Source: Owenia fusiformis (taxonomy: Eukaryota; Annelida; Polychaeta; Sabellida; Oweniidae). Taken from it: DNA of 64,000 nucleotides. Where the stretch lies: NCBI GenBank assembly GCA_903813345.2, contig CAIIXF020000004.1, positions 13,724,196-13,788,195 of the forward strand, given 5' to 3'. A program made the position numbers and the translations under genes. Below are positions 2,141-57,735 of this stretch, one piece after another. Positions within the stretch are counted from its first letter, which is position 1. The number at the start of each line of letters is the position of its first letter. The notes under the pieces are model-generated. The model was not told where the DNA came from. It saw nothing but the letters and a program-made list of their open reading frames with translations, and searched no databases.

Positions 2141-3265
2141 TCATACGTTCGTTGTTGATGATGTACATGTAGTTGCAGTTTGATATCGTGCAGTTATTGG
2201 CGTTTTGTAACACCTTCCACAAAATAGAGTCTTCATTTTGGTGCGAAAACGTCTACCAGTCGCACAGTATAGAATAAAATTGATTCCACAATTAATGAAA
2301 TATAATTCAGTGGCAACGGCTCTCAATAGATTCATATTCGCTAGGATCTGATTCGAAACGTGTTTATCGCTTGAATTATATTTTTCGTCCAAGATATAGT
2401 ATATTGTGACCGGAAGTGTGAGAAAAATGAAAGCGAGACTAACAACAATGAGCATGACGGTTAGTGACCTTGACCTGTCATAGTGACCCGCCTGGATACC
2501 AGTTCTGACGTTCATTGTTGCTACTCTTTCTCTTCTAGACATCACGAGTCTGGTGATAATAATCACGTTTCCAATGACGATTAGTACAAATGGGAGAATC
2601 GAAGCCAAAACGAGATCGATCCAAACCCATATATGTATCCGCCAATGTCTGTACTTATCATGATTATACACGTAACACACAACGGTGTACAATTTTCCTT
2701 CCCACGTGACCTCTCCCGATCCCTGTATCCATAACAGATTTAGATTTATCCCCAATAAAACGATTGTGATTATCGTTATGTTTATCCCCGCACGTCTAAC
2801 AGTGCACCATTCCCTGGCGTGAATTGGGAGTAGTACGGTGAACATTCTCTCAAAAGTAACAGCAGCGAGTAACCACGCGCATATATGCGCAAGAAAATAG
2901 GCCAAGAATCGACTTAGGCGACAAATAATTTCATCAGTGTCCCTGTAATAAAACTGGAACTGCCTTATCAACCAATGGTTTGTAAGTGTTACGAGGAGAT
3001 TAAACGTGTCACAAACGGCCAATGCAGACAGATAAACGCTCGAGCTCGTCTTGCGCATGTTTGTGCATGTCAGTACAAGAAAGCACAGGCAGTTGAGTAG
3101 GACTCCCACGAAGAGCACAAACGGTGATACATATTTGAATAAAAAATCTCCCGCCAAATATTCTGGAAAAGTTGTATACAAATTGCCCGTATACCTGGTC
3201 GTTATGTTCGTAAATACCGTTGTCATCTCACTTGTTATGTTCGTGGTACTAGCTCTATATTTCAT
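2141..3265 (-). CDS. Class A GPCR, peptide-receptor-like, intronless
   Basis: A 374-residue seven-helix receptor in one exon. It has an N-terminal tail with NIT glycosylation sequons (residues 9 and 20), TM1 near 45-68 with conserved N58, D86 in TM2, C115 at the top of TM3 and its likely disulfide partner C197 in ECL2. ERM (139-141) replaces DRY, FLTLP lies in TM6, and NFILY (329-333) replaces NPxxY before a basic helix 8. The RKTSSSVYLSALAVCD stretch after TM1 and the NFxLYC ending resemble the large FMRFamide-receptor/GPR139-like expansions of marine invertebrates. That places it in the plasma membrane sensing an extracellular ligand, probably a peptide. The ligand cannot be assigned. No intron signal is needed, and intronless single-exon receptors are common in such expansions. 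Confidence 0.9.
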   Translation of the reverse strand: MKYRASTTNITSEMTTVFTNITTRYTGNLYTTFPEYLAGDFLFKYVSPFVLFVGVLLNCLCFLVLTCTNMRKTSSSVYLSALAVCDTFNLLVTLTNHWLIRQFQFYYRDTDEIICRLSRFLAYFLAHICAWLLAAVTFERMFTVLLPIHAREWCTVRRAGINITIITIVLLGINLNLLWIQGSGEVTWEGKLYTVVCYVYNHDKYRHWRIHIWVWIDLVLASILPFVLIVIGNVIIITRLVMSRRERVATMNVRTGIQAGHYDRSRSLTVMLIVVSLAFIFLTLPVTIYYILDEKYNSSDKHVSNQILANMNLLRAVATELYFINCGINFILYCATGRRFRTKMKTLFCGRCYKTPITARYQTATTCTSSTTNV

Positions 3266-3782
3266 CTTTAATTGTTCTTCCTTTGTGAATAACTGCTACG
3301 CTGCGTTTTCTAATAATAGCAGCTGTTTTTATATATATACTAGTCACAGTTTCGTTGATGCTCTTACTTCGTACTTGGCTGGTCAAACCTTGTTTAATTA
3401 TCCTCGATTAAGATTTATGAGAAAATAACTATTGTACTATGAAGAATGATCCATGTATTCCGTTATTCTCGTCTCCGGTGTCTTATTATACGTTCTTTTT
3501 TCTATCAACCTAATTGAGAAAGCAGGAAATTATGCTACGTCAATTTACTTATCATCCGCTGTGAAATGAGTAATGAGATTGCGATTCCTCCTGATTGTAT
3601 TTAGACTAGCAGTGTGATAGTCAACGATATTTTTAACACTTAACATTCTAAACCTCGCGTTATGCCATTCTCAACCTTAACCCTCTTCATTTATAAGGAT
3701 TTTATCTGGCCGTAACCCAAAAAGAATTGGCAGCCAGGAGTCTAACTCGAAGTTTTTGATCTTCAGGCAATGTGTTTAGTGC
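3266..3782. other. Upstream region of the GPCR
   Basis: This holds the presumed 5' flank of the minus-strand receptor. No clear TATA box or other gene was found. The plus-strand ORF reaching 3428 is mostly the antisense of the receptor's N-terminus. Confidence 0.4.
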
Positions 3783-10028: not shown

Positions 10029-13000
10029 ATGCCGATAAAGTTTAAGGAATTACTTTTTCAATTAATGGTTGTCCTGTTGAGCTGCGATGCGATTTTTGGG
10101 AGTAACGTTCGCATTTGGCGTCATTTGGAGAAAAGGAAAGCAGGGGAGCAGCCTCCTGCGGGGGAGTGCATGAATTGTAGATGGGGAGGACAAACTGGAG
10201 TTCATTTCTATACATGCTGCAATAACTGTGATGAACCTGATAATGAATGTGACGGGGTAAATAACTACTGTAATTATTCCATAAATCATAAAAAAACGTG
10301 AATAAACATCAAAAATAAATTCACATAGAGAATTAGAGATCTTTCATGACAGTTTATACCATTCAATTTGAGTATTACCCTTGGTCTGTTATTTTTAAAT
10401 AGCTTTGATTATAAACAAATGTCCTATAAACGAATGTCCTGTGAAGGTTCACCTTAACGATACATTTTCTCAAAGAACTGCTATGGGTTATATGTAAAAA
10501 AACAATGAGTCGCTTGTCTAATTAGGTGGAGTATGACAGTGCTAGCAATGGCGATTACTGTGGAAAATGTGGAGTTGATTCTGCTGATGGAGATGGCACT
10601 TGTAATAAAGGTGAAGGGGATACATTCCAATGCGGTGGCTGTGATGGCCAGACAAAGATAAAAACAAAGTACGTGGTTTACCTCTCAGTATTTACTTAAA
10701 AGTATACACTGTTTCTTTGTACTTCAGATCATTGTTTGGGATGCGTGTGCTTTACTTATTTATGAATCTTTATACTCATCAAATACTCTTTTTCACCTGT
10801 ATTAGGTCGTACCCTTTCAATGGCACATGCGATTACATTCAGTTTAATAACATCAAAGTTCAGCAATATTTAAATAAACCGAAAGACAGAACAATATCGA
10901 TAATCCACTCACTTGAACACAAGCTTTCCAATGGTACTATTGATACGAAAAAATATATTATCTAATATAATTTAGTTCATCTATGACGATTCCAATATAC
11001 TATATAATATGCATTTGTGTATTAAATTAGAATTGTTTCATTATCCGGCTATTGCTGTCTTTTACTATTCAATCAACTGATGTAGTAAACATATATGTTT
11101 CATAAAAGCGCAAGAAAAATCCATATTTATTGTTCTAGATGGTTTTCACATACGACCAAGGTTCAACCAATGCAGATATATGCACTGGCGGACCTGGGGG
11201 GAGCTATATATCTCGGAATATGATCATATTTCCAAACATCCACATTTCATGAAATCTTGAAAAATTACAGAATATTAATTTTTTAAAGCTTGAAGTGGGT
11301 AATATGTGTGTGCTTGTGTCTGGATCATGTTTAACAAGAATGTGTTTTCTTGGTTGAAGATGTGACTCAGTTTGGTTATATAGAGTCCCTGGGTTTTGCT
11401 GGGCGTGGCAGATGTGTTTCAACAAACTCTGTAAGAAGGTGCATGGTAGACGCCCTGGGAAACGTTCAACTGGAAAAATAGAGTCCATAGTAAAACGGTG
11501 AGTATTTAAAGATATACTTGTTTAAACATTTGTCATCCTTTATGAAACATGTCTACAAATTCTGTTTATAAATCAGCCAAACTGCCGATATACGGGATGA
11601 CTTTTGTGGAGATGGTGTTTGTAATCTAGATGAAACAACCACAAATTGCCCAATGGACTGTTGTGGTTTGTTAAACCCTGTGTGTATATGGGAAACATAT
11701 TTCGCCCTCTGTTTCCCTGATGGTTCATGTGACAAATGTCCGCCATTGTGCTGCAGCGAGCCTACATGTTGCGGTAGGTTGAAACAAATGTGTTTTTTTC
11801 ATTTTTTGTATGACGATTTATCTCATATTTGTAAAATATACAAGTGTAACACGTATTACAACAAACATTACCGATCTAATCAGTAGCTTAACTGTTACAG
11901 GTTCAACGATTAATAACACTACTCAAGCTGGTATAATAGAGCAAGAAGAAATGACTGGACATGTTACAACAATGGAAACAAAGAACTTAACAGATTCAGG
12001 TACAAGAACGAAACCAGGTGGAATAACAGAACAAGTTACAACAATGGAAACAAATAACTTAACAGAACCAGTTACAGGAACGGAGCCAGGTGGAATAACA
12101 GAACAAGTTATAACAATGGAAACAAAGAACTTAACAGAACATGTTACAAGAACGGAGCCAGGTGGAATAACAGGACAAGTTACAACAATGGAAACAAAGA
12201 ACTTAACAGAACCAGTCACAAGTACAGAACCAAGTGAAATAACAGAACAAGTTACAACAATGGAAACAAAGAACTTAACAGAACCAGTTACAGGAACGCA
12301 ACCAGGTGGAATAACAGAACAAGTTACAACAATGGAAACAAAGAACTTAACAGAACCAGTTACAGGAACGGAACAAGGTGGAATATCAGAACAAGTTACA
12401 ACAATGGAAACAAAGAACTTAACAGAACCAGTTACAAGTACAGAACCAGGTGAAATAACAGAACAAGTTACAACAATGGAAACAAAGAACTTAACAGAAC
12501 CAGTTACAGGAACGGAACCAGGTGGAATAACTGAACAAGTTACAACAATGGAAACAAAGAACTTAACAGAACCAGTTACAGGAACGCAACCAGGTGGAAT
12601 AACAGAACAAGTTACAACAATGGGAACAAAGAACTTAACAGAACCAGTTACAGGAACGGAACAAGGTGGAATATCAGAACAAGTTACAACAATGGAAACA
12701 AAGAACTTAACAGAACCAGTTACAAGTACAGAACCAGGTGAAATAACAGAACAAGTTACAACAATGGAAACAAAGAACTTGACAGAACCAGTTACAGGAA
12801 CGGAACCAGGTGGAATAACAGAACGAGTTACAACAATGGAAACAAAGAACTTAACAGAACCAGTTACAAGTACAGAACCAGGTGAAATAACAGAACAAGT
12901 TGCAACAATGGAAACAAAGAACTTAACAGAACCAGTTACAGGAACGGAACCAGGTGGAATAACAGAACAAGTTACAACAATGGAAACAAAGAACTTAACA

Positions 13001-16000
13001 GAACCAGTTACAGGAACGGAACCAGGTGGAATAACAGAACAAGTTACAACAATTGAATCGAATAATTTAACTGATTCAGGTACAAGAACGGAACCAGGTG
13101 GAATAACAATACAAGTAACAACAGCTGAACCAATGAATTTAACTGATTCCGATACAAGAACAGAACCAGGTGGAATAACTGAACAAGTAACAACAATTGA
13201 ACCAAAGAATTTAACTGATTCGGGTACAAGAACGAAACCAAGTGGAATAACTGAACAAGTAACAACAATTGAACCAAAGAATTTAACTGAATCAGGTACA
13301 AGAACGGAACCAGGTGGAATAACAGAACCAGTTACAACAATTGAACCCAAAAATTTAACTGATTCAGATACAAGAACGGAACCAGGTGGAATAACTGAAC
13401 AAGTAACAACAATTGAACCAAAGAATTTAACTGATTCGGGTACAAGAACGAAGCCAGATAGAATAACAGAACCAGTTACAACAACTGACCCAATGACTTT
13501 AACTGATTCAGGTACAAGAACGGAACCAGGTGGAATAACAGAACCAGTTACAACAATTGAACCAAAGAATTTAACCGATTCAGGTACAAGAACGAAACCA
13601 GATGGAATTACTGAATCAATTACGACACTTGAACCAAATAACTTAACTGGTTCAGGTACAAGAACGAAACCAGGTCGAATAACTATACAAACCACAACAA
13701 TCAAAGCACACAGATCAACTGATTCGGTTACAGGCAAGAAACTAGGTGGATCAACGGGACCTGTTGATATAACCGAATCAGTTACAACAAATGGACCAGA
13801 TAGACAAATTGAAACAAGTACAGTCAGGGAACCAGTTGGAATAACAAAACAAGATTTGACAAGTGAACAAGACCACACAATTGCTCAATTGACGACGGAT
13901 AAATTAGTTACAACAACCATACAAGGTAAACAGAAGCAAACTAGTAATTTTGATTTCAATATAATTTAGAAATTAAGTTTGATATTATTCAGCATTATTC
14001 ATGAATTTATGATTTCTTTGATCCTCCGGATATCCAATAAAAGGGATGTATAAGTTGGCATGTTTGTATTCCATTAACATAAAATTTACATGTTTTATTA
14101 ATATACGTAAGTGTATGCCTAACATTAGTATGCATATACACGGGGGTTAAGCAGACCCGATGATGCTATGAGCTTGCTCGGCGGTATCATGACTGTGTAA
14201 CGGGGCTTAATGTATAAGTGAGCTCGGCGGTAGGTTTAAACAACGCGGATCCTCAAAGCATGTGCTCATGGTATTATCGTGGCTTAACACCCGTGCATAT
14301 ACATTAAGTGATTTCGTATTTCCGCAGCCGGTGCGTGCGAATATAATGGCAAGATACGAAAAGATGGAAAGACATTCAAACATATCGATGCTTGCAACAA
14401 GTGTGAATGCTCTGAAGGTATATCTTAATTTATTTTGCATAATTCCTTACTGCTAACGATCATAAATATTATGCTCGATGTTAGCATGGTGAAAGTCTCG
14501 ATTTTCCAGTTTACTAAATTGTTCTAGTAGTGGTAAAGTGATCCCGTGTAATGATTTCTGATCATCAAGCTTGTAAAATGTTCTAGATTGACACAATTTT
14601 TGTATTCATCCCGAATGCATTCTAGTTCACCACCAACCCCTTCTCTAATTATTCAAGATTGGTCGGTATTTTGAATTGAATGTAATTAAGTCATCATTGA
14701 CATATCTCTTTGCATCATGCAAAAAACAACTCTCATATTTGAATGACATACATTGATAGCGTAATGGACAGCGAATTTCCTCTGTCACGTCCAAAAACTC
14801 CTATACTTTTTGAAGAGTGTAGATTGCATCATCACACTTAATATACATCACGGTTCACAACTCCAATCCTTCAACAGTATAATGTGCAATATCACAGTTG
14901 TTATAAGTCACTTTTCAAAAGTCAATTACTTTGACGAAGTAAAATGCATCATCATAATCTATATTCACTTTTAGGAAGAGTACAATGTTCAGACAAGAAA
15001 AGGTGCTCCAGTTGCAAATACGAACGTAAACGTCATAAAACGGGGGAATATTTTTTATCAAAGGACAAGTGCAAAAAATGCATTTGTATTGCTGGGTCGA
15101 AAAAAGCTAAATGTGAGAATATACCATGTGGTAAGTGGAATTATAACATTCAGCAAAGTAATTTACTTCACTTTGATTTGTCATGTTATTTTTTGACCCG
15201 TTTGCACCATTCATAAATTTGCGTGAGATCCCCCACTCGAGCATGGATGGGGAATTCGACAAAATTCGACATTTTGGCCCGTATAATTCCTTACCCCGAG
15301 TCCAAATAAATGTGTCAACTTCCCTACCCTTGGAGCAATAAATCTGGTCAAATATTCGCGACCCCCGGGTCCTTCCACCATTAGAAATGTATTTTTAAAC
15401 ATCAGTTATCCTCGTTAGTAGACTAATGCTCGCGAATGTTGAGGGATATACGCGCAGTACTTCGTTTATATGTCAATATTTTAATTAGACACGCCATATA
15501 GATCAAAAAGATTCTTCGCGGAAAGTCCACAACACAGGCTACAATTAATTTTTGATTGAAAAATTCCCTTACAATTTTACATATAACCAATGGAGACGTA
15601 GCGTTTTAAATGACGCAATTACCCGCGAAATTAAAAGCCAATGAGAATAGTTGTCCATTTTATGACGTTTTCGCAAATTGCCTGAAAGTTTTGACAAATT
15701 AGCCGGAAAGTACATGGTTTTACTATTGGTTTGTTTCTGTTCAACAAAAGTGGAGAACATACCTGTATGAACGATCATTTTTTGTGGAATGGGCAGGCGG
15801 ATTGTTGCGTTTGATGGGTACAGATCGGGAACAGAAATCCACATCGTAGTAATTTTCGAAAGCTCTCTTGTAATTTATGCAATGACGTGTTTTAAGATAT
15901 TGGCTTTTTTATTTTAATAGGTTACCTCCCTCCGTTTTATTCATCTATATCGAATTGATCAAATTAGAATTTGTTCGAACGTAAACTTTTCTCGGGTACA

Positions 16001-19000
16001 TGTAAATCAAATTCCTCACCCCCGGACGACAATCTTCGTCAAATTCCTACCCCTGAGCAATATTTATATCAAATTCCTCACCCTCCCCCCGTGGAGGGGT
16101 TTCATGCAAACTTTTGAATGGTCTATAATATGAGCGGTCTAGAGCACTGAACACGCTAAGCCAGGCGCTGTTGTCGTAACCATGAGGTCGTGAGACGAGA
16201 TACGTGAGCTCGTTGCGTTTATTCATATCATATTCTTATGTTTTAATATGTACAAGAGCCAACAACGTGTACTTATGGTGACAAACAATACAAGAAAGGC
16301 AAGCAATGGCTCTCTATTGACAAGTGTAACAAGTGCAAATGCAAGGAAACAGGTAAAAATCACCTTTTTGATTATAATAAGATATACAAGGTGTTCCATA
16401 TGTATGCATTTTATCTTAACTTATACATTTAGCGTTACCACTCTATCATATATCATTTTGTTGCTTATGAAAAGTTTTAGAAGATTGCAAAGTTTCAGAG
16501 TCAAGGGGTGTCCCTGTAAAAATGTACAATTAGTTATTTATTAGACATGATGTATCAACATGTCTTCCTCGTAATACTCACTGACTACATATATCGAAGT
16601 TTTTAACTTTAAAATATACAAGCAGAATTTATAGATGGCAATAGCGATTTATGAGTTGAAATAGTGATGTCTCCAAAAGCAATGAATAATACAATAACAT
16701 CTATATTATGGATCTGTGTAGTCTTCGTGAGAAAATCGTTCATGCAGCTAATATAGTTTATCAGTTGAATATCCGGATGGATAATATTGAGTTTAAATTA
16801 TGGGATTTCTAACTTGTTGATATTTATCTGCAATAAGATATTATTTTTTTCAAGTAGTCTCTGACGGGTTTTATTTCATGCCGTTGATCAATGATCATTG
16901 TATTTAAAGTAGTTGTAAACAGGATTGGAGTGCATGTACCAGTGTATTAGTTAATATGATGTCATATCATGTAGTAATTACTACTAGCCGAACAGTTCAA
17001 AAAAGCCTGAGTTAAGCTTTAATGTCCTATTTAATGTCCTGTGTATGTCCCCATGTTAATTCAATGCGCCCTTGTTAAAATCCTCATTTTCCCAAGTAGA
17101 TTGATTCCAAACAAGTATATTCATGTTGGATAGTATTGCTAGAATCCATTTTCAATAGTAAGATTGGGGGTTCTTAAACAGGACATACGGCTTGGTTTTT
17201 AGAACTTTTTGTTGGTACTTACTGTTGTATGTACATATTCAATTCCTTCATCTATTCAATAACCCGCAGTTGCACATCCACTTCATATTGGCTGTTTTAG
17301 TAAGCGGTTTGAGCGCAGTGTGTAGCGATAATAAATGGTGTAGAATGTGTGTATACAAGAATCGTAAATACAACGTTGGGGATGTATTCAAAGAGACCGA
17401 ATGCAGAAGTTGCGAGTGCCAAATCAAGAACAAGACAGCTTGCACTCCAATTTGTGGTAAGTGAACGATAATTCCCTAGGAACTGTAATATTTAGAGATA
17501 ATTTTAAAGTAAAAACATAAAAACATATTTTTCAATTGCAAATTTTTACTCAATTGTCGAATAAGGCTTTTAAGTCATGAGATGCGACGACATATTGGCA
17601 TAGCCAAAGTTTTGTCTTTGCCTTTCAATAGTATACTGTTGTCATAATGAGTTTAATTGTCGTAATGGCAACATAGCTTAATTTTAACTTTACTCCTTTT
17701 AGATAACTGTAAGCCGAATGATATTAGTTTCTATTGCACGAAATGTTTGATACATACACCCCTACAAAATGAATAAGCCCTTTTAATCGGAAAATGTTAA
17801 CACTTTGTTCAACGTAGCTAATTTTATCGAGTCTCTTTGATGGTAATCTTTATTCATTTTAGATTACTGTAAGGCGAATGACAGACGATATCTTTCAGGG
17901 GAACAATGGAGACACCCTGATAAATGCAACACTTGTAGATGTAAAGAAGGTGAACGAATACTTCTTGTGTCATATTTCAATTTCTAGTTTATATTTACCC
18001 GAATCTCAGGAGGATTTACAATCGAGGTATAAAAGAGACGAGGTATATTCCGTATGCAGAATTTAAAGAGAGAGTATTACTCATGTTTGGTACACCGGCC
18101 ATTTTGACGGGTGTCTAATTTGATTCAATGTTTTACAATCTTGGTCATACAACCATCCCGAAAACCAACAATCATATAGTTCACAATCACCTCATTCTTC
18201 GTCAATCATCACCATCAACCAAATTATTGGTCAATTTGGATTTGATGTATATATGACCATCCATAACATTCAGGTTATACAAAATACTGTTTGCTGGGCA
18301 ATATTTTTCTTTTTTTTGTCGTGTCATTTTTAATAGTCGTCATTATTATGTTTTTGTTAATATTTAGGATTAGTTAAATGTTCCAACCTTGGAAAATGTA
18401 TGAAGTGTTTGGTTGGCGGAATTACATATAAATTCGGCGAAGACTTCCTGTTAGATGGCTGTGTCGAGTGTAAATGCGTTTCAACTAACCGTCTGGACTG
18501 CTGGAATAGATGTACAGGTACGATAATTTTGTCATACAGTGATGACCTGTTATTGCTCAGTTGATCGATTGAAAGAAAGCCGCCTCCAAATGCTACATCT
18601 AGTCTACTGACCTCGTCTTCGCTCATTTGATCTCATAAATCATAACGCTCGTTTTTGCTCATTTAACCTCTTAAGGGACCTCTTGCAATCATTTCATGTA
18701 GTATACTGACCTAGTATTTGCTAATTTGACCTCTTGAAGGAAAGCCGCCTGCAAATGCTACATGTGGTGTGCGTCCTGACATTGGACAAAGCAGAATCAC
18801 AGGGGGTACTGTTGTTGACCCAGCATTCAGCTGGCCATGGATGGTTACTATAAAGGCTCGGCTTAATGATGACGATGATCTCCGTCATGTCTGTGGTGGT
18901 GCTGTAATTAACAGGAACTGGGTAATAACTGCATCGCATTGCTTTACCAACAAAAAGATTGGGTATGTAAATTGTAGGGTATTTGATAGCCTTGCCCCAA

Positions 19001-22000
19001 GTCGGTCTCTTTTACTTATCTTGATTTCTATTATGACCGCCTGCCCTTGTACCAAAGAGAAAGCCACGTGCTTTACCGACAGTTTGTTTATGTCGGTGAT
19101 TTTGACCAATAGCACGCGATCTTTCAATGTCTAAATTTAGGTTACAAACACACGAGGTAATACAGTTGTTGATTTTGCTCCAATCAGCAATTTAGTATTG
19201 GAACCTTTGATAGTGGCATTGTGGGAAGTCCTACCTCGCTTTACTTTCATCAGCTAGCAAAACTGAAAATGACCCTCGCAAAATCGATAAACGTTTTATT
19301 TGCTAAATATAATTGAAAGTAATTTGAATGTAGTGAACCGATTTAATATCAGAAAGTTGATGACTGATCAGTTCACATATAAACACTTATAGTTATGCTG
19401 TGAAAAGGATAATGAAAAGTTATTATGGTTCTGGTGAATGCGTTTTATTTGTAAGGGAGATGCCTGGATTTGCAGACTGCAAGCATGCCGCATATAACTT
19501 CACAACCGCATGGCGAACACGTGGATTTATTTATTGATTTTTGTGTATGACTACCGCTATTGGCTAATGCTATAGGGCACGCGTAATAGTTGGTGCATAA
19601 TTTATCATAATAACAGTGGAGATGTATCGGATTACACAAGGCGGTAATAATTCAAGATCAGATAAAGTAAAAAATACCGACTTGGGGCAAGGCTAGGTAT
19701 TTGATATAATCTGAAAATCAATTTGTGCAAAATATATTATTGAGCAATTGAGTCTTATATTTCTTTGGGACGTGCTGTTCTTGTTGCCTGATGTGCTGCT
19801 ACTTTTTCTTGCAATGTTTGCCTTAAACCATGTACTTTACATGTTTCTATTACATTTTTAGAAGAAACCCAGACGATTTTATATTATTCTTTGGAAAGCA
19901 CCATAGGACAGAAATAGAACCTGGTGAAATGTCTCGAGAGGTTGAGCTCATTATAACACATGAGGAATTTGACTTAGCCAGCAATCTAGACAGTGATGTA
20001 GCCCTGATTAAGCTAAAAGAGCCCCTTAATTACACGACCCATATCCAACCTTTATGTCTTGGGAAAACAAATGCCACGTTTTGTGTTATGGCCGGGTGGG
20101 GTTCAACAGGTAACTTATATCTTTGAGAGTGTGACTCGTATATGTCAGTTCACAAATTATTAGAAACTTAACACCACACGAATCGCATAAACATCATATT
20201 GTCTCTTCATTATTTACAAACGTATTTCAAGATGTCATATCATAGTACTAATGTTTTAATAATGTTACAGATATTTTCATTGAAATTTATCTTTTGAAAT
20301 TTTTGAAGCAATATCTAAATATTACAACATTCAAATTAACCATTGGATTTTTGCTATCCATTGACAAATACGTAAACAAAAAATGTTTGCACCACACAGA
20401 ATGTAGACCCAGGGTTTCTTTGTAGTGACTTTGATTTAATTTTAGAGAGAGGACTGATTACCAAAGATATATTCTTTAAAGTAGAACTATCTACGTATCT
20501 ACATCAGGTAAATTGAAGTTTAAATCATATTAAGGAGGCTAAGCTTCAATATTTTGATTGTTTTCCAATTGAAAAGGGGTGGTAACATTTTGTTTATAAT
20601 ATTACAGGTTAACGTGTATTTCTAGAGAGCTTTCGATATAAGTTATTTTGAATGCTTATACACAAACCTGTACTTGTACAAGTCAGGTATAGCACTGGGG
20701 AGGAACTCTTGAAACGAAATAGGATGCTTTCATCCTTCAAGTCACAAAATATTCGGCAAGTATGTAGTTCGTGAGTTCTGGTTTCAAAATATGATTACAA
20801 CTTAGAAATTAATTATGCCATTGCCGGGATATTCACAAATCTATTTCCAGGATAGGGGAATGAGGAAAACTTTTCTAATGAAATGTACTTTCCTGGTTTC
20901 TTTGAGAAACCGTCCTCCCCAGTGGTGTTTACGTCATTTAAAAGTTAAAATTGCAGTTTAAGTTTGGCTGAAAACTTATATTCAAAGCTCTCTACCATGA
21001 CATCAAAACTTTGAAACTCTATCGAACAGGTAAATATTGAGGATGACAGAACTAGCCAGAACCATACTTCTACATGTTCAAGTTGTCTAAAGAATGCATA
21101 GCATCATCTCTTCAATGTATAGTTTAAAAGTAAAATTGTAATTAATTTTTATATTTTATAATTGAATTGTAAGACTGACAACTATAAATAAATAAATAAA
21201 CTTAACTATACTAAAACTAAACTATGCAAATTAAAAAGCAAATATAGACCTCACGGATAATTGTCTCTGTTCATATTGAAGGTCATCGTTCCCTTAATTG
21301 ACACCAGTATATGTAACAGAGAAGATTGGATGGAGGGAAGAATTAGCAACAATATGATTTGTGCTGGTTTTGAGAAAGGTGGAAAGGATGCATGTATGGT
21401 AAATTTTATTATATTTTAACAATGACTTTGATTCCAAAATGTGTTTTTCGATTCAAAATGGAACAAATAGGATCAGAAAGGCTAATAACCAAATCCATCC
21501 AAAAATCATTAAATAATCTAGATGGAGCGATGTTCAAATACACTTTTCCTTTGAAGGAAAAATCAAATTGTCATAAGTCGCTGATGTCAGCACAAGATAC
21601 TCCAATGAGGTCACTAAATGTTTATGTCACGAAGATGGTTGAATATTCTTCAGGGAACTAATCAAATTACTTGAAAGGTCTAGGTTTCGCTATTCGGCTA
21701 ACGTCGGTTGTAGCCCAAAAATGTTACTCAGACATATTTGATAAGCTGTATAAACATCTCATTTAGGGTGATAGTGGAGGACCAATGTTCTGTGCAGACA
21801 ATCTTAACCAGTGGACATTGAAAGGTAATTTCTATTTACATCTGAAAATTTATGACACGTCGACAATTTATCTTAGAGATGGACCTGAAACTAAAAAATG
21901 TTCTCCCCGTCAAAGTTTGTTCTGTTTTAACTTGTGTTTTAGTGAGTCAGAAACAAACATGTTGTCACTTCGACTATCTTGTTATCTATCAAATTCCAAA

Positions 22001-22841
22001 ATATTATCATTTAAAAGCTCATTATCGTCATTACACTCAATAAAAACATTGATTGAGTAAATTTTACGATTACAAACATCATTAGGGCCAATATATTCAA
22101 ATATGACCACTGTTTTGTCAGTTTTTACAACTTTACATTAGACATTAAATTGAACTAAAACTGAAACAATACATACACATACTTTTTAGTACGGCTTAAA
22201 TATGGACATCTTTGAAATATTACATCAAATCAGAGTAAGATTGTGAGGCTATTATCTATTTATTCAAACATATTTGGCTGAGATGATGCTGTATCAATAT
22301 TTGAAAATCAGTGGTATATTTCAATTAGTAATTGCAAGTTGGGGTATAGACTGTGGCATTCCTGAGAGACTATGATGTATCAATATTTGCATATCGTTGA
22401 TACTTTCAAGAATTGCAAGTATAGGTATAGGATGTGGCATCCCTAAAAGACAGTGATGTATCTATATTTGCATACCGTTGGTACTTTCAAGAATTGCTAT
22501 TGGGGTATATGCTGTGGCACCCTAAGAGACTATGATGTATCAATATTTGCATATGTTTTATACTTTCAGGAATTGCAAGTGGGAATATAGCCTGCGGTAA
22601 CCGTAAGATACTATGATATATCAATATTTGCATATCGTTTATACTTTCAGGAATTGCAAGTGGGAATATAGCCTGCGGTAACCGTAAGATACTATGATAT
22701 ATCAATATTTGCATATCGTTTATACTTTCAGGAATTGCAAGTTGGGGTTTAGGATGTGGCATTCCTAAGAGACCCGGTGTGTACACTAAAGTGGAGAACT
22801 TTTTAGACTGGATAGATGAAAAGATTCAAATACACGGATGA
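10029..22841 (+). CDS. Secreted mucin-VWC-trypsin mosaic protease, 17 exons
   Basis: Predicted 1427-residue protein. Exons: 10029-10256, 10526-10668, 11360-11497, 11577-11773, 11901-13925, 14328-14417, 14975-15130, 16257-16352, 17301-17456, 17863-17949, 18368-18517, 18740-18962, 19862-20109, 20446-20507, 21282-21398, 21767-21824, 22732-22841. All junctions are GT-AG with matching phases, and the total (4284 nt) is a multiple of three. Order: signal peptide (about 1-24), Cys-rich head (to about 235), 24-residue mucin repeats (about 236-910), six VWC-like modules (about 911-1155), then a trypsin-family domain to the C-terminus. Such a protein would be secreted, heavily glycosylated and activated by cleavage at SR-ITGG, tethering a protease in mucus or matrix. 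The substrate is unknown. I chose ATG 10029 because it starts a good signal peptide. A polyA signal lies at 22889. The weakest joints are exons 2 to 3 and the mucin-to-VWC step. Confidence 0.8.
10805..10965 (+). CDS. Possible alternative 3'-terminal exon (short isoform)
   Basis: An acceptor TATTAG precedes 10805 and the phase fits exon 2. The frame then reads [12 protein letters not shown]... and ends at a stop at 10963-10965. Splicing exon 2 here instead of to 11360 would yield a short secreted Cys-rich protein without mucin, VWC or protease. No AATAAA follows closely, so this could also be chance. Confidence 0.35.
11183..11200. mobile_element. Scrap of the poly-G element family
   Basis: CACTGGCGGACCTGGGGGG matches the ends of the elements at 5243 and 62954. 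It lies in the intron before exon 3 of the mosaic gene. Confidence 0.35.
11901..13925 (+). repeat. 72-bp coding minisatellite: 24-residue mucin repeats
   Basis: One 2025-bp exon encodes about 24 clear repeats and a degenerate tail. The consensus is [20 protein letters not shown] followed by EPGG. Nearly every unit carries an N-L-T sequon plus many Thr, so both N- and O-glycosylation are expected. Units 5-8 and 9-12 repeat the same order of endings (GTQPGG, GTEQGG, STEPGE, GTEPGG), showing a 288-bp block duplication (12297 against 12585). The second part shifts to an NLTDSGTRT variant. The donor CAAG/GTAAAC at 13925 is in phase 1 and fits the VWC exons; read-through would end at a stop at 13969. 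Confidence 0.9.
14131..14302. mobile_element. Small inverted-repeat element in intron
   Basis: GTATATGCACGGGTGTTAAGC-type ends: ATATACACGGGGGTTAAGC on the left pairs with GCTTAACACCCGTGCATAT on the right. About 170 bp with no ORF. It sits just upstream of the first VWC exon. Confidence 0.55.
15202..16128. mobile_element. Inverted-repeat DNA element in VWC intron
   Basis: The left end ACCATTCATAAATTTGCGTGA near 15207 pairs imperfectly with the right end TTTGCATGAAACCCCTCC read in reverse near 16125. Subterminal CAAATTCCTCACCCC-type repeats occur inside. About 0.9 kb, no intact ORF. Confidence 0.5.
16125..16215 (+). repeat. Possible tRNA-derived SINE remnant
   Basis: TGAGCGGTCTAGAGCACTGA resembles an A box, and GGTCGTGAGACGAG resembles a degenerate B box about 50 bp on. 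There is no cloverleaf I can close. Weak call. Confidence 0.2.
16985..17190. repeat. Dispersed repeat shared with 23654-23930
   Basis: Both carry AGAATCCATTTTCAATA followed by GGGTTCTTAAACAGGACAT. The copy near 23654 also has inverted GAACTCAAGTTGATCGGACTC ends. It lies upstream of the exon at 17301. Confidence 0.5.
17703..17777 (+). pseudogene. Decayed duplicate of the exon at 17863
   Basis: TTTTAG/ATAACTGTAAGCCGAATGAT copies the acceptor and first 20 bases of the real exon (TTTTAG/ATTACTGTAAGGCGAATGAC) 160 bp downstream. The frame reads D-x-C-K-x-N-D and then departs, ending at a stop at about 17775. If spliced it would truncate the protein before the protease, so an alternative terminal exon is possible. 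Confidence 0.6.
18560..18739 (+). pseudogene. Partial tandem duplicates of the exon 12 splice boundary
   Basis: GAAAGCCGCCTCCAAATGCTACAT near 18579 copies the first bases of exon 12 (GAAAGCCGCCTGCAAATGCT at 18740). Surrounding TTTGACCTCTT and CTACTGACCT blocks recur two or three times up to the true acceptor. The upstream copy breaks off after the shared bases. Confidence 0.7.
18978..19704. mobile_element. Inverted-repeat transposon with 9-bp target duplication
   Basis: Element 18987-19695 has ends TAGCCTTGCCCCAAGTCGGT and ACCGACTTGGGGCAAGGCTA and is flanked on both sides by GGTATTTGA (18978-18986 and 19696-19704). A 9-bp duplication suggests a Mutator-like non-autonomous element. It landed only 24 bp past the splice donor at 18963. 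It encodes no transposase that I can see. Confidence 0.85.
22329..22731 (+). repeat. 81-bp tandem duplicates of the terminal-exon splice acceptor
   Basis: Five units start at about 22330, 22410, 22491, 22570 and 22651; the sixth, at 22732, is the real last exon. Each contains ACTTTCAG/GAATTGCAAG plus about 40 bp of exon-like sequence (glycine, tryptophan and GCG-type codons decayed), then stops in frame. The two units before the real exon keep a perfect TTTCAG/G acceptor. The tandem 81-bp spacing is nearly exact. Confidence 0.9.
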
Positions 22842-23308: not shown

Positions 23309-24733
23309 ATGAATTTGAGAGCATTAATATGCATACTGGGCCTATGCCTCACGCAAAAAGTGAAGAAAAAGAAGCCATGTAAAATGCCAACACTATCACA
23401 TGGAAATGTCAGTTATGATAAGAGAACCGTCGGAGGAATAGTTACATTCTCATGTCACAATGGCTTCGAACTAGTAGGACCAGAAACAAAAACTTGTAAA
23501 GAGAAAGGAAATCGATTTAGATGGTCACCAAGACGACCAATCACAAAATGTCAAAGTGAGTAAAACCTGCAAAACGTTCTACAATCAAACCTAATGTACT
23601 TTTGAAAATGGGTCCTACCAACACCCTCCCAAATGAATCTACGTGTACTTGTTCAGGACTCGATCAACTTGAGTTCTTCTTTATTTAAGCCGGGGTGCCA
23701 TTGACTAAACGTGGGCATGTAATTTACCCTGCGTAACTACATTCACACAATGTACATATGCAGAATTAAGGTAAATTGCGTCCCCATTTAAGTCAATAGT
23801 ACCCTTGCTGAAATTCTCGTATTCTCAGAAGAACTCAAGTTGATCGGACTCAACAAGAAGATTCATATGGGACAGTAATGTTAGAATCCATTTTCAATAT
23901 TAAGAATACGGGTTCTTAAACAGGACATCCAAGCTTATTTAAGACCTTTTGAAAATTTTGGTTAATACTAATAGTCAGTAAGTGTTGTCAAGAATTGCTC
24001 GTTTTGTAAATGTCACTCATATTGGACAACAATGAATTTAAATTCCAATTCAGTTTCAAACATCTTGAAATATCATTGCAGCATTGAAATTAATATTGCA
24101 TGGCATCTATAGTTTCAGGTAAGAGATCTGAACCAAGCATTACAACTGAACCAAGCGCAGAAACTTTGCAAGGTAACATATTAACTAGACTCTGTTAAGC
24201 TAAATGTACTGTATATGAAATGTACTTCATAAAATACTGAGCTATTTTGAAGAAAGCCGGTCAGTATGTTTGCATTGCCCATTTCAGTTACATCTTCATT
24301 GATCTTAAAATGGTAGTTTGGGATCGATTGGTTATGATTTAGATTGTATTATATATAAGACTATACAGTGTATAATTCCCTCCCAACTAATACAACTCAA
24401 GTATTATGGAAATATAACAAAGACAACAGTAACATGAACAACAACAACATCATCATGAAAAGTTCGACTGGATACAAAAACACTTCAGTAAATGCCTATT
24501 AGAATAAGCTTCAGTTTGTATTAGTAATATACAATGTTAGATACAATTTAAGCCATTAACCAGTTTTTTTTTATATCGGACATAGACCAGACAATATGTT
24601 AAGTAAATTGACTTTTCGATGTTAACAATATTAATATGAGTCTGCTATCTTTTACATATAAATTTATCTAAACTAATATTGTGCAGGAAATGAGACGATA
24701 TCAATGCAATATGTTTCAAATGACGACCATTAA
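23309..24733 (+). CDS. Small secreted single-Sushi (CCP) protein, 3 exons
   Basis: Exons 23309-23555, 24119-24172 and 24687-24733 join in phase 1 into a predicted 115-residue protein. It has a signal peptide (MNLRALICILGLCLTQ), a basic KKKK stretch, then one complement-control (Sushi) module: CKMPTLSHG, GGIVTFSC, FELVG, KTC, W and C, the usual four-Cys plus Trp pattern. A short Ser/Thr tail follows and the last exon adds GNETISMQYVSNDDH. Sushi modules mediate protein binding; no partner is indicated. The last exon is the least certain part. Because exon 2 ends in phase 1, it could instead splice to 25293 and make a Sushi-sulfatase fusion. Confidence 0.65.
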
Positions 24734-37212: not shown

Positions 37213-38345
37213 CTAGAGAGTGCAACCAGGTTGTGACATCGGGTCTACATCTGATGTGTGTCTTAGATATGCCTTATGTACATCGTAGACTTTGAATTCT
37301 CCCAAAACATTAAGCTCAATATGAGAAGAGAATCTTTGAAGTGAGTGAATATTTTCACTGGTTGAAACCAAGGCTTGGGTATTGTCTTTAGTTTTGAATT
37401 TTTGAATCAAGGCATTACGGAATTTTGAGTGACTGAAAGCGTAAAGAATGGGATTCACGCTACTGTTTGCAAAGAGACCATAGGCTCCAATATGGTATAT
37501 CAATCCATTGAAGTCCTTGACAACCCAAATATTGTACAGAAAAAAGTAGGTTTGGTTCCAAGTCCAGCATAAAACATAACATACAGATACAAGTATCAGT
37601 GTACGAATAATGTTGGATCGGGCTCGAAACATGTGTCTGTCTCTTTGGACTGATCTGGTATGACTCTTCTTCATTTCTACATGAATCTTAAATGCAAGTC
37701 TTCCATAACAATATATCAATATAGCTATCGGTACAAAATACTCCATTATTACTAAAACTATTCCAAAACAGCGCTGGAAAAGTTCACTTGGCCATTCAGT
37801 CCACAGTGAGCAAAATTGTCCTTGTAGTTCAGTTGTTAATATCTCATATGTATTGATTAAAACTCCTGGAATCCACACACATAAAATCACAATCTTTATC
37901 TTTTGTTTGCTGACCAAACGTTTGTGCGATAAAGGATGCATTAGTGCTAAGTATCGCTCAATTGTCAGGGCGACTAGGTTTGCTGTGGATGTGATTATAC
38001 AGACCCAAAGCAAATACTGCGATAGCCAGATTTTACAATACATTGTCGCCAAAGGGCCTGTCTCTACTATCCATCCCATATCATCAAACAATTTATTTAA
38101 GATAATCAAAACTGATGCAAACATGTCTATGAAACTTTGATTTATAAGTAACATGTTTGAGATTTGTCGCTAAGTTTCGGAGATTTGAGAAAAATATACA
38201 CAACCAGTGCATTTCCAATTAAGCCTATAGATCCTATTGTGCAGCATGTGATTTTCTCAGTCATTGTTGCAGAGTAACTTGAATTGAATATTGTCCTGTT
38301 TGTAATTATGCCATCTCTGTTTCCTATGAGGGTGGTGTTGTTCAT
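37213..38345 (-). pseudogene. Class A GPCR, frameshifted in ICL1
   Basis: An N-terminal ORF (38142-38345) covers the extracellular tail and TM1 up to SPKLSDK, then shifts frame. The rest (37213-38154) covers TM2 to the C-tail in another frame. Against the paralog at 42303, an AAAA run is AAA here (about 38163-38165), a one-base loss. The remaining receptor is otherwise normal: ERY at the end of TM3, LCWTW in TM6 and NPILY in TM7, with basic ICL3. It looks like an invertebrate neuropeptide-type receptor; the ligand is unknown. Because everything else is open, the shift could be a sequencing error or a very recent mutation. Confidence 0.8.
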
Positions 38346-41296: not shown

Positions 41297-42302
41297 TACT
41301 GTGTATAACATCTTTTTCTTGTGCCAAATGTTTTAATTTTGGCTTCCAAACTAGGAGTGGGTTGAATTGCTTTTTAATGTGTATTATACTGTTATTGGAT
41401 ATCATCTCCATCTCATTAATGCATCTGACAAATTACTTAGAATGATGAACCAAATCTAAATACGACTAACATGAAAAACAATTATGTATAGTGATCAATT
41501 AAATCGTTTTTGAAATATGCTCATGATTGTTGTCTACTAGACTAGTCAAAATAATGACGTTTAACATTTAGATAAAGGAGTTTTTACATTGTTTTGTGTC
41601 TTGATTGCTTATCTCGACAATGTATATCCTGAGTGTTCTGAAATTATTTTTATGTATTATTTCTGTGTATATGCTACTTGCGGATCTAATGTAGATATAC
41701 AAGCACGGTATGTGTGCACAATAATGATATTTAATTACTTTGAATAACGACACGAGTTAACAATGTAAAGCAAGCTATCAATATCATTATAACAAGCTCC
41801 CAATAGGATTATTAGATCGTCTGATTACATAGCTATTCAAATATCTCTTCCACAATGCATCTGTCAACGATGTTTAAGAAATATTTTTAATAAAACTTTC
41901 ATTTACATTTACGAAGGAAGACGTTTAGGAATAACGCGCAAAACGACAGAATATAATACAATTACAACACAAAATTATTACATTTCTCAATTTAGATTTA
42001 TGTTCAGCTTATTGGTTTCTTATGTGACAGAGTACGCATAGAGATCGAAACTATCTGAACGCATTGAAATTGACATTTAGTGGCAGAGAGAAATGCGTAA
42101 CTATCAACCAATTCGGAAATTTTGCGGAACCTACATGTGAAGTGTCATATTAAATTTACTGATTTTGGAAAATTATGATATGATATGGCCTATTGAGATT
42201 AAAGAATTTCGAATCAACAACAAAAAACTTTGTACATCAAACAATTTATTATATTGAAATAATTAATGCATGGAGAAGTAGATAGCTGTACTATTAATTA
42301 AG

Positions 42303-42974
42303 ATGAACACAACCATCGTTATGGGAAGCAGAGATGGCACAACTGAAAACATAGAAGTATTCAACACAAGTTACTCTGCAACACTTACTGAGAAAACCAC
42401 ATGCTGCACAATAGGATTTATTGGCTTCATTGGAAATATATTGGTTCTGTATGTTTTTCTCAGTTCTCCAAAACTTAGCGGGAAAATCTCAAACATGTTA
42501 CTTATAAACCAGAGTCTCATTGACATGTTTGCATCATTTTTTATTATCTTGAATAATGTTTTTGATGATATGGGATGGATAACAGAGACGGGCCCTTTGG
42601 CGACAATGTATTGTAAAATCTGGCTATCGCAGTATTTACTTTGGAGCTGTTTGAGCGTATCTACAGTCAACCTAGTTGCACTTACATATGAGAGATACTT
42701 TGCACTTATGTATCCTTTATTACACAAGCACAAAGTCACCAAACAAAAACTCAAGGTTGTGATTGTGAGTGTTTGGATGTTTGGGTTTGTTTCCAAACTA
42801 AGTGAGATATTTTCTACTGAATTACAAGGAAAATTTTGCTCGCTGTGGACTGAATGGCCAAGTGAAATTTTTCAACACTGTTTTGGAATAGTTAATGTCG
42901 TTATATTATTTTTTATTCCAATAGCTACACTAGTATATTGTTATGGAAGACTTGTGTTTTGCAAGTTTGCTTAA
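42303..42974 (+). pseudogene. Class A GPCR paralog truncated after TM5
   Basis: 223 residues closely matching the receptor at 37213-38345, in inverted orientation. It has the extracellular tail, TM1, uninterrupted ICL1, MLLINQSLIDMF in TM2, ERY after TM3 and LVYCYGRL at the end of TM5. Homology stops abruptly at 42951 (GGAAGACTTG), and unrelated sequence adds VFCKFA and a stop. Without TM6 and TM7 it cannot signal as a GPCR; such truncated receptors can sometimes act as dominant partners, but a pseudogene is simplest. A spliced continuation was not found nearby. Confidence 0.8.
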
Positions 42975-54400: not shown

Positions 54401-57400
54401 AAATCCCATTTTCAGAAAATTGTATTTTTTAACATCTTCACAATTTCACCGAGAGCATACCTGGACAAAAAACGTGATATCTCTAAATCTCAAAGTTGTT
54501 GATGCTACACAAGTAGAACAGTCTTTCTCCCATTGAACACTCTACACGCATTTTTATGTCACCCTGTACGTACAGTAAAACCTGCCTAATCCGAACACCA
54601 CTAGGGCTGGCTAATGTTTGAATTAACAGGTCATCAAAGGAACCCGAGTTGTTTGTAAAATGAATCTTTAGGATTATATGGTGCAATCTTATAGTCAATA
54701 AAATGTTTTAAAGTGTATTGATGTTTTTAAGATAGAAAACAAGAAGAAGTCATCGTGAGGTACTAGTAACTGTGACAGGTTTTATGTTTTCATGTTTTCA
54801 AATTTTCTTTACTATTAGATAGACATCCAAACAACGAGACAACTACAACATCAGAAGAACTGCCGACAACAGCACAAACGCGATTGAACTCCCCTCAGCT
54901 AGTATCAGTTGCCTCCCACAAACCAGACACCCCAACACCGGTCACAGTATTGTCATTTATTTCTCAATCGCCCCCAGTTACAACAAAAGTGACTTTTACA
55001 GAAGTTACTGAGACAGAGGTATCGACAACAGCAATAAAGGCAACAGAAGTACCAATAACTACAGGTGCTACGACAGAAGTACATACAATAGTAACTACGA
55101 CAGATATACCAACATCCACCATAACTACGACAGAACTACCAAAACTTACAGCAACTAATACAGAAGTAACTACAACTATAGTATCTATAACAGAAGTACC
55201 TACAACTATGATAACATCAACAGAAGTACCTACAACTTTATCAGCTACGACAGAAGTACCTAAAACTGCAATAGTTACGACAGAAGTACCTACTACTGTA
55301 ACTTCGACAAAGATATCCGCAACTACAGTAGCTACGACAGAGATGCCAACATCTTCAGTAAGTACGAACAAAGTACCTACAACTGAGGAAATTACAACAG
55401 AAGTACCTACTACAGTAACTACAACAGAAGTAAATGCTTCTGCAACTTCAACGGAGGTGCCCGCACCTACCGTACCTCAGACAGAAATATCTACAACTGC
55501 AGTAAATGCAACGAAAGTACCTACAATTGAAGTAAATTTGACAAAAGTAGCTTCAAATACAGTAACCAGTGCCGAAGTACCTACAACTACGGAAACGACG
55601 ACAGAAACAGTATCTACGACAGAACTTCTACCAACAACTTCAGGGGACACGATGGAAGTATCAACAATTGCAGTAGCTACAACAGAAGTACATACATCTC
55701 AGGGAATCAAGACAGAAATATCTACAACTGGAGTAACTACGTCACAAATACCTTCTACTATTACTTCGACAAAGACTCCCACAAATACAGTAACTATGAC
55801 AGAAGTACATACTACTGTTACTTCAACAGAGGTTCCAACAACGACAGTAAGTACGACAGAAGTGCCTTCAAGTGCAGTAACTATGACAGAAGTACAAACT
55901 ACTGTAACTTCAGCAGAGGTGCCCACAACAACAGTAAGTACGACAGAAGTGCCTACAACTGCAGTAACTACAACAGACGTACCTAAAACTGCAGTAAATA
56001 CGACGGAAGTGCATACTACTAAAACTTCCAAAGAGGTGCAAACAACTTCAGTAAGTATATCAGAAGTACCTACAATTGCAGAGACTACGACAGAAGTACT
56101 TACAACAGCAGTACTTTTAACAGAAGAACCTACAACTGAAGTACCTATGCCAGAAGCACACACTACTGTTACTTCGATAGAGGTGCCCACAACGACATTT
56201 AGTACGACAGAAGTGCCTTCAAGTGCAGTAACTATGACAGATGTACATACTACTGTAGCTTCAACAGAGGTGCCCACAACAACAGTGCGTACACCAGAAG
56301 TGACTACAACTGCAGTAACTACAACGGACGTACATAATACTGCAGTAAATACGACAGAAGTGCATACTACTGTAAATTCGAAAGAGGTGCAAACAACTTC
56401 AGTAAGTTCATCAGAAGTACCTACAACTGCAGCAACTACGACAGAAGTACCTACAACGGCAGTAAATACGACAGGAGAACCTACAACTGCAGTACCTATA
56501 TCAGAAGTACATACTACTGTAACTTCGATAGAGGTGCCCACAACGAGAGTAAGTACGACAGAGGTGCCTACAACTGCAGTAACTATGACAGACGTACCTA
56601 AAATTGCAGTTAATACGACAGAAGTACATACTACTGTAACTTCGATAGAGGTGCCCACGACGACAGTATGTACGCCAGAAAAACCTACAACTGCAGTTAC
56701 TGCAACAAAAGTACCTTCAACTGCAGTATCTTCGACAGAAGTACCTATAACTGCAGTTACTATGACAGAAGTACCTACAAATACAGTAAGTACAACAGAA
56801 GACAATATTACAGTAACTTCTACAAAAGTACTTACAACTTCAGTAAGTACAATAGAAGTATCTACATCTTCAGTAACTACGACAGAAGTACCAACACTAG
56901 CAGTAACTTTAACAGAGGTACCTTCAACTGTAGTAACTACCACAGGAGTATCTACAAATTCAGTAAAGACAACAGAAGTATCTACGACAGCAGTAACTCC
57001 GACAGAGGTACCTACGATTGTAACTACATCAGAGATACCCATAACTACAGTATCAACGATAGAAGTACCAACTACCATAACTACAACTCCAATTCCAGGT
57101 AATGCTTGCAACATGATACTTAAGAATGATAGCAAGAGATCATATGATATTGGATTTACATTAATTCAGGAAAAAGATTCTGGCTACACACCAAGAAAGA
57201 TTTTACAAACAATTTAGTCGCCAGGGATGCAAACCACCAACACAGAAAACGGAGACCATAAAACTTAAAGTACAACTAAAAATGAACATGTTTTTGAGGG
57301 ACCTTATTATGCATATTGAAAGAGTTTCACTTAGTCTAAAGCGCTATTAAACATTGGGAGTTTCCACATACATGTGTGAGTATTCATATATTTCAAATTT

Positions 57401-57735
57401 GAGATGAGATGGTTGGTAAGCAAGTTTTGAAGAATTCAAGTTAAAAAGTAACCACCCAAGTCACGTTGTCGCGCACAATCGGTCCATTTTTGGTAGCTGC
57501 GTATATCAAGGATGTTAATACTATCTATATTCTTCTTAGTTGTACTTATCTGTATAATTTGTTCTGTTTAGATTGCGAAGCAGAATGTGCTAAAAGAGGC
57601 GACGGTGTGTATATTCATCCTAGCAAGGGTTGTTCCTGGTATTGCCAATGCCTTGACACCCAGTGGTGGGAAAGGCCTTGTCCTGAGTCGACATGCTTCA
57701 ATGAAGACATACGGGCGTGTGGACACGCTCCCTAA
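51494..57735 (+). CDS. Type II membrane mucin with chitin-binding domain, paralog 2
   Basis: Exons 51494-52001, 54819-57098 and 57572-57735 join in phase 1 to 983 residues. The layout matches paralog 1: Ser/Thr-rich cytosolic region, RSWTTYEPNWL (46-56), AETQT (127-131), basic KRKKSRRR, and a Leu-rich anchor (141-167). The Thr-rich stalk is about five times longer (about 760 residues), built from a roughly 10-residue unit near EVPTTAVTTT. The C-terminus is a CBM14-like module (DCEAEC...GCSWYCQC...WWERPC...TC...AC). Type II topology would display the chitin-binding tip far from the membrane. Start chosen as the first ATG in frame, matching the other paralogs. A transposon sits in intron 1. Confidence 0.85.
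53437..53560. repeat. AAAT-rich microsatellite, possible retroelement tail
   Basis: AAATAAATAAATGAATAAAT and related runs follow GGTATGCCGCTGGTACAAAAG, which could be the 3' end of a LINE. Intron 1 of paralog 2. Confidence 0.45.
54049..54568. mobile_element. Foldback element with CACCCTG end in mucin intron 1
   Basis: Element 54051-54566 starts CAGAGTGACACAAAAATGCC and ends ATTTTTATGTCACCCTG, flanked by TA. Arms pair through GAGTGTTCAATGG and GCATCAACAACTT blocks. Same end type as 973-1713. Confidence 0.8.
54571..54625. mobile_element. Tigger/pogo-like terminal fragment
   Basis: TACAGTAAAACCTGCCTAAT followed by CCGAACACC resembles the terminal repeat style of pogo/Tigger elements. Only one end is visible. 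Confidence 0.3.
54819..57098 (+). repeat. Thr-rich stalk exon with 351-bp higher-order repeat
   Basis: 2280 bp, open throughout, in units of about 30 bp. The segment starting at the HTTVTS codons recurs at 55808, 56159 and 56510, exactly 351 bp (117 codons) apart. The stalk therefore grew by block duplication. The open frames on the minus strand here are by-products of the codon pattern. Confidence 0.88.

Follow-up and report, generated by a model that had tools for sequence, protein, structure and literature searches.

A probable single gene joining a cysteine-rich head, a mucin-like repeat strand, six VWC modules and a trypsin domain in Owenia fusiformis

Do exons for a cysteine-rich head, a mucin-like repeat strand, an array of VWC modules and a trypsin domain, lying one after another in an annelid genome, form one gene or two? 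The question is raised by a 64,000-nucleotide stretch of Owenia fusiformis DNA (contig CAIIXF020000004.1, positions 13,724,196 to 13,788,195 of the forward strand; hereafter the window, within which positions are counted from its first letter). An earlier note, made from the letters of this stretch, had proposed a single gene with 17 exons, matching phases and a frame of 1427 codons. Splicing these exons between 10029 and 22841 on the forward strand reproduced the model exactly, yielding 4284 nt, or 1427 codons and a single terminal stop, with GT-AG borders at 16 of 16 introns and phases matching throughout. We consider that the locus probably forms a single gene, encoding a secreted mosaic protease zymogen 1427 residues long, a conclusion reached from genomic sequence; the analyses described below support the note's single-gene proposal or leave it uncontradicted.

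The catalytic part is encoded by the last six exons (18740-18962, 19862-20109, 20446-20507, 21282-21398, 21767-21824 and 22732-22841) and matches the Pfam Trypsin family (PF00089) with an E value (E) of 2.2e-57. The complete catalytic triad and Asp189 that had been read here were located, with His57, Asp102 and Ser195 at residues 1222, 1275 and 1375, and Asp189 at residue 1369 within the motif DACMGDSGGP. The presence of Asp189 predicts an S1A protease with trypsin specificity. A zymogen activation site, GQSR/ITGG, follows the R/I-x-G-G pattern. The trypsin part contains ten cysteines, one of which matches Cys1 of chymotrypsinogen; the assignment of Cys1 and Cys122 numbers to these residues is presumed on our part. 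By sequence, the closest solved relative is plasma kallikrein (E 2e-50). Plasma kallikrein, factor XI, plasminogen and hepsin, all with solved structures, have an S1A catalytic domain as the window protein does, and in each of them the active enzyme remains disulfide-bound to N-terminal modules. To our knowledge those modules are of the Apple, kringle or SRCR type and come without a mucin-like strand.

Ahead of the trypsin domain, six exons (14328-14417, 14975-15130, 16257-16352, 17301-17456, 17863-17949 and 18368-18517) encode six VWC-like modules, recognized by Pfam VWC (PF00093) in six stretches at E 3.9e-21 and 75.5 bits, against a cut-off of 27.6. The exons are three copies of a two-exon, two-module unit, with lengths of 90/156, 96/156 and 87/150 and phase-1 introns between them. 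The modules are short, the whole six-module stretch holding 36 cysteines, and this part has no PDB relative at E up to 1. Such an array may bind matrix or regulators. Identity of the modules with pacifastin inhibitors, which would mean a self-inhibited protease, was rejected at a Pfam score of 14.7 bits against a cut-off of 27.9. By eye, the intron before the VWC exon at 17863 seems to contain a decayed second copy of this exon (17701-17750).

Searching the 498-Mb genome assembly, in which all counts of family members are lower bounds, uncovered a second copy of the six VWC modules and trypsin domain (VWC6-trypsin) 11 Mb away (C4:2271970-2283654; L002 and L003). All 12 shared exons have the same length and phase in the two copies, and 391 of 516 residues are identical. 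The paralogue's VWC part scores 62.8 bits in Pfam, again in six stretches, and both the activation site and the cysteine expected to pair with Cys122 are found in the window gene and in the paralogue alike. Over the VWC6-trypsin part, the NG86 method gave a nonsynonymous divergence (dN) of 0.152 and a synonymous divergence (dS) of 1.294. The dN/dS ratio was 0.385 by YN00 and 0.126 by NG86 for the VWC part, and 0.148 and 0.117, respectively, for the whole. Since dN lies well below dS, selection has maintained both copies as protein. The introns have diverged, with best local scores above all 20 shuffles in 2 of the 12; the intron preceding the VWC exons is not one of these.

The VWC6-trypsin part is common to the two genes, whereas their N-terminal parts differ: in place of the head and repeats of the window gene, the paralogue has a start resembling a signal peptide, then an intradiol ring-cleavage dioxygenase domain (Pfam PF00775, E 1.6e-18; PDB relatives at E 2.2e-16). 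Its predicted protein of 725 residues would thus combine an intradiol dioxygenase, six VWC modules and a trypsin. Residues Tyr87, Tyr115, His125 and His127 of the dioxygenase are invariant among three copies and are candidate iron ligands, which we take to be the Tyr/Tyr/His/His set. The dioxygenase domain has at least five matches in the genome, four of them covering most of the domain. In three other copies the frame stops directly after the domain, although these amount to two independent cases because a pair on contig 8 encodes the same protein. The members of this pair (C8:37481192-37481728 and C8:37579897-37580433, approximately 99 kb apart) specify an identical 193-residue protein from the first Met and represent either a recent duplication or an assembly duplicate. 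In contrast, the dioxygenase linked to VWC6-trypsin reads 17 to 19 codons beyond the stop of the other copies, up to a 6.0-bit phase-1 donor in frame with the first VWC exon (predicted junction C4:2272594 | 2273568). Among bacterial and archaeal species genomes, 63 stretches match a search pattern, and 15 loci, mostly from Nitrospirae and Rokuibacteriota, encode relatives that are 34 to 39% identical. Frames for trypsin and TSP1-like domains were also noticed at C2:16906624-16908797 (L007) and C6:6718225-6719888 (L008). Weak matches to the VWC array lie upstream of these trypsins (E 3.0e-4 on contig 2 and 0.384 on contig 6), pacifastin is below cut-off at both places, and L008 has a sub-threshold Lustrin_cystein match.

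Relatives were found for the other end of the window gene as well. The cysteine-rich head (residues 1-235, 29 cysteines) is encoded by exons 1 to 4 (10029-10256, 10526-10668, 11360-11497 and 11577-11773) and opens with a hydrophobic, signal-peptide-like N terminus; it matches no family in Pfam or NCBIfam scans. The same four-exon head, ending in a phase-1 intron, is present in two tandem genes of contig 10 (C10:9523379-9526882 and C10:9530548-9532567), to which it is identical at 125 of 218 and 99 of 219 aligned residues. A dibasic KR at residues 35-36 is common to all three heads; dS between the heads came out undefined. Because both contig-10 homologues connect exon 2 directly to the exon matching that at 11360, the 17-exon model is preferred over an 18-exon version (additional exon 10806-10933, acceptor at 11371, 1466 residues), which was rejected.

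Of the two contig-10 genes, the first goes on from the head to another kind of C-terminal domain, which begins near TGDPH, for a total of 436 residues. This domain has no Pfam match at E up to 1, and the whole protein has no NCBIfam match and a best PDB match of E 0.68. The second continues into a related stretch (28% identity over 150 residues). Beside the contig-10 heads, no VWC match was obtained with 80 of 80 candidates scored, and no trypsin match among the 142 scored of 373 candidates. The window showed no remnant of the C-terminal domain from contig 10 (best tblastn match E 0.25). Across the tandem pair (C10:9523379-9532567; L005 and L006), the head is followed by a domain beginning near TGDPH or RDPHF, and a further weak match to head residues 5-51 occurs at C12:12763788-12763928 (E 1.1e-4).

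Between head and VWC modules stands exon 5 (11901-13925), flanked on both sides by phase-1 introns. Tandem Repeats Finder identified in it a repeat of period 72, with 24.0 copies and a 90% match, from 11959 to 13683. The repeat unit of 24 residues is Thr-rich and carries an N-L-T sequon in most of its roughly 24 copies; the exon as a whole is 30.7% Ser plus Thr, with 25 N-glycosylation sequons and neither cysteine nor aromatic residues. Such a strand could plausibly bear N- and O-linked sugars. Elsewhere in the genome, matches to the repeat all contain 5 to 10 stops (150 scored of 292 candidates). A Pfam RFC1 score on this exon (25.9 bits against a cut-off of 23, no single stretch passing) was taken as a compositional artefact. 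The window protein has a Ser/Thr-rich repeat strand, as gel-forming mucins do, but VWD, C8 and cystine-knot domains, with which those mucins form polymers, were absent at E up to 1 from its head, repeat, VWC and trypsin parts in Pfam. The note's picture of a protease built into a glycosylated matrix or mucus strand is in this respect a reasonable inference, favoured by the tethering cysteine kept in both copies, with glycosylation of the strand predicted and the polymer-forming domains of mucins missing. Every donor in exon 5 scoring above 3 bits is in phase 1; splicing within the exon could thus shorten the strand with the frame kept, a prediction that the phases allow.

The single-gene reading turns on the 402-bp intron between the repeat exon and the first VWC exon (13926-14327). 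Splice sites were scored with each accepted site left out in turn (26 sites in the acceptor matrix) and with the GTs and AGs of the window as background. The donor at 13925 scored 9.2 bits, a value reached by 0.9% of window GTs, the accepted donors ranging from 3.2 to 10.8. Among 491 open frames of 60 codons or more, a rough control that includes real exons and overlapping frames, 10 had a phase-1 donor of this strength within 60 nt before the stop. Met is absent from exon 6, whose frame, followed upstream, runs into a stop before any ATG in the window gene as in the paralogue. Consequently, a downstream gene begun by a spliced leader would also lack a start and a secretion signal there.

Several observations weigh against continuity across this intron. 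The paralogue donor reaches just 6.0 bits, a value attained in 34 of the 491 control frames. Phase-1 GTs of 5.8 to 7.1 bits also occur within the repeat unit, with 11 in exon 5, so donor strength taken alone says little for a single gene. The acceptor at 14328 scored -0.8, below all 26 accepted sites (1.1 to 10.4) and no better than 56% of the 3336 window AGs; with an acceptor this weak, the border is drawn from homology, that is, from the same exon length and phase in the paralogue. Left unspliced, exon 5 runs to a stop at 13969, with an AATAAA at 14036, making an independent head-plus-repeat transcript possible. The gap also offers a candidate start exon (14046-14106) whose donor, poor at 3.6 bits, is still barely above the weakest accepted one (3.2). 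In the paralogue gap, a hydrophobic peptide begins with an ATG at 4847 of the joined L002+L003 sequence (peak hydropathy 2.88; sole phase-1 donor -5.5 bits). The search for start exons was confined to the two gaps.

These observations could be accommodated by two genes, one for a mucin of head and repeats that ends at 13969, the other for an independent VWC6-trypsin protein with a start exon that escaped the search. The parts are indeed separable, the head occurring on contig 10 with no adjoining VWC or trypsin match and VWC6-trypsin occurring on contig 4 without the head; the weak acceptor at 14328 and the candidate at 14046-14106 would fit as well. However, the gap measures just 402 bp and its best start-exon candidate, besides its poor donor, has a peak hydropathy of 1.70, as compared to 2.44 to 3.23 for five signal-peptide-like starts in these families. 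The paralogue gap has no ATG exon with a phase-1 donor above -5.5 bits. Nor do the two gaps share sequence above controls (best local score 22, against a maximum of 30 in 20 shuffles), so that no conserved hidden exon is seen, although a fast-evolving signal-peptide exon could escape such a comparison. Together with the missing Met and closed frame of exon 6, these results make the two-gene explanation improbable.

A different arrangement would have one promoter give rise to two products, the full protease and a head-plus-repeat mucin that keeps intron 5, ends at 13969 and uses the poly(A) signal at 14036; the paralogue would likewise yield the dioxygenase alone or joined to the protease. In both copies the donor is soon followed by an in-frame stop (after 42 nt in the window gene and 30 nt in the paralogue), and the intron contains an AATAAA (at 14036 here, the nearest at 4692 of L002+L003); use of the phase-1 GTs within the repeat exon would likewise preserve the frame. 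Yet AT-rich introns should contain stops and AATAAA by chance; on this strand A[AT]TAAA has a density of 2.3 per kb, at which AATAAA is not rare. We regard this arrangement, too, as unlikely. That the locus is a single gene, whether or not it also makes the short form, can be held with good confidence. Very improbable, finally, is that the locus or its protease part is a relic yielding no functional protein. Decayed exon duplicates occur in introns 9 (by eye) and 16, those of intron 16 being a tandem array of five decoys, each of about 81 bp and copying the last exon's 5' part together with its 3' splice site region (22330-22731, forward strand); but the frame is open throughout, the triad is complete, and dN is far under dS over VWC and trypsin in the comparison with the paralogue.

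How novel is the combination? The earlier note knew of no described protease with this domain order. Literature searches, with most subscription journals outside their reach, returned no description of head, repeats, VWC array and trypsin together, nor of an intradiol dioxygenase and a trypsin in one protein. The claim of novelty holds for the literature searched, while the architecture proves less isolated than the note implied, given that insects are known to have secreted trypsins of several domains, with low-complexity and chitin-binding parts among them (PMC1761132). In the portion of that article available, honey-bee SP23 has low-complexity stretches and chitin-binding, SRCR and LDLrA modules before its protease domain, Drosophila Tequila has the same three kinds of module and repeats, and mosquito Sp22D is said to resemble SP23 and to bind chitin (PMC1761132). 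SP23 and Tequila are like the window protein in being large mosaics with several modules before one C-terminal S1A domain and with low-complexity or repeat stretches; they differ in their chitin-binding, SRCR and LDLrA modules, and the same portion of the article mentions for them no VWC array, 24-residue repeat strand or head of this kind (PMC1761132). Conversely, Pfam found no chitin-binding, SRCR or LDLrA module at E up to 1 in the four parts of the window protein. Mosaic trypsins are thus an old and known kind, of which this domain combination was not found in the literature searched.

The dioxygenase-protease fusion is the more surprising part and the furthest from the literature found. 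Intradiol dioxygenases of spider mites, which belong to the enzyme family of the paralogue head, are secreted, were acquired from fungi and have an activity called unique in animals; the part of the report seen mentions no protease or VWC portion (PMC9167512). Tardigrade genomes also hold clusters of intradiol dioxygenase genes, according to the accessible part of a second report (PMC5531438).

Other features of the window include a Sushi-domain exon (23309-23555), a sulfatase-like gene beginning downstream from 24843 (Pfam Sulfatase, E 8.7e-07 on one exon), and rhodopsin-type receptor frames (7tm_1) at 2144-3295 and 37216-38169 on the reverse strand and 42282-42971 on the forward strand. Perhaps a second mucin-like gene is represented at 54776-57732, where a Thr-rich repeat frame of 813 codons is accompanied by a CBM_14 chitin-binding frame (57445-57732).

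What would such a protein do? Joint transcription of the parts, secretion, glycosylation, tethering and place of action are inferred here, the activation and retention of the protease from established knowledge of S1A zymogens. VWC6-trypsin would be an old cassette, duplicated and start-less, working through phase-1 intron joins behind genes that already have a secretion signal: the head and repeat strand in the window gene, the intradiol dioxygenase in its sister copy. The protein would be secreted as a zymogen, its short propeptide possibly removed at the KR. Cleavage after R1174 would free the ITGG N terminus, and the active domain would be kept attached by a predicted disulfide between Cys1164 and Cys1295. 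Since the cysteine for pairing with Cys122 is kept in both copies, the activated protease should stay bound to the strand. So tethered, it would act locally on Arg/Lys sites of its neighbours, while head, strand and VWC modules would hold it in an extracellular mucus or matrix layer. That the setting is mucus or a tube is a guess, based on the repeat strand and an annelid-like marker, the Pfam family Eryth_link_C of annelid haemoglobin linkers, which has three matches above cut-off. With less than even confidence, we propose that the start-less cassette was captured twice by unrelated secreted genes, placing a protease on a mucin-like strand in one case and joining a trypsin to a catechol-cleaving dioxygenase in the other, that both products work in a shared secreted material, mucus or tube, that may be catechol-cured, and that the head chooses where the protease is placed.

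If this is true, one protease cassette has been fixed behind two unrelated secreted partners by phase-1 joins, and the pair would constitute a natural two-case experiment on the origin of extracellular mosaic enzymes. An intradiol dioxygenase joined to a trypsin would be unusual in an animal. As for the window gene, chaining a protease to a glycosylated strand could be the way in which processing stays local in mucus or tubes.

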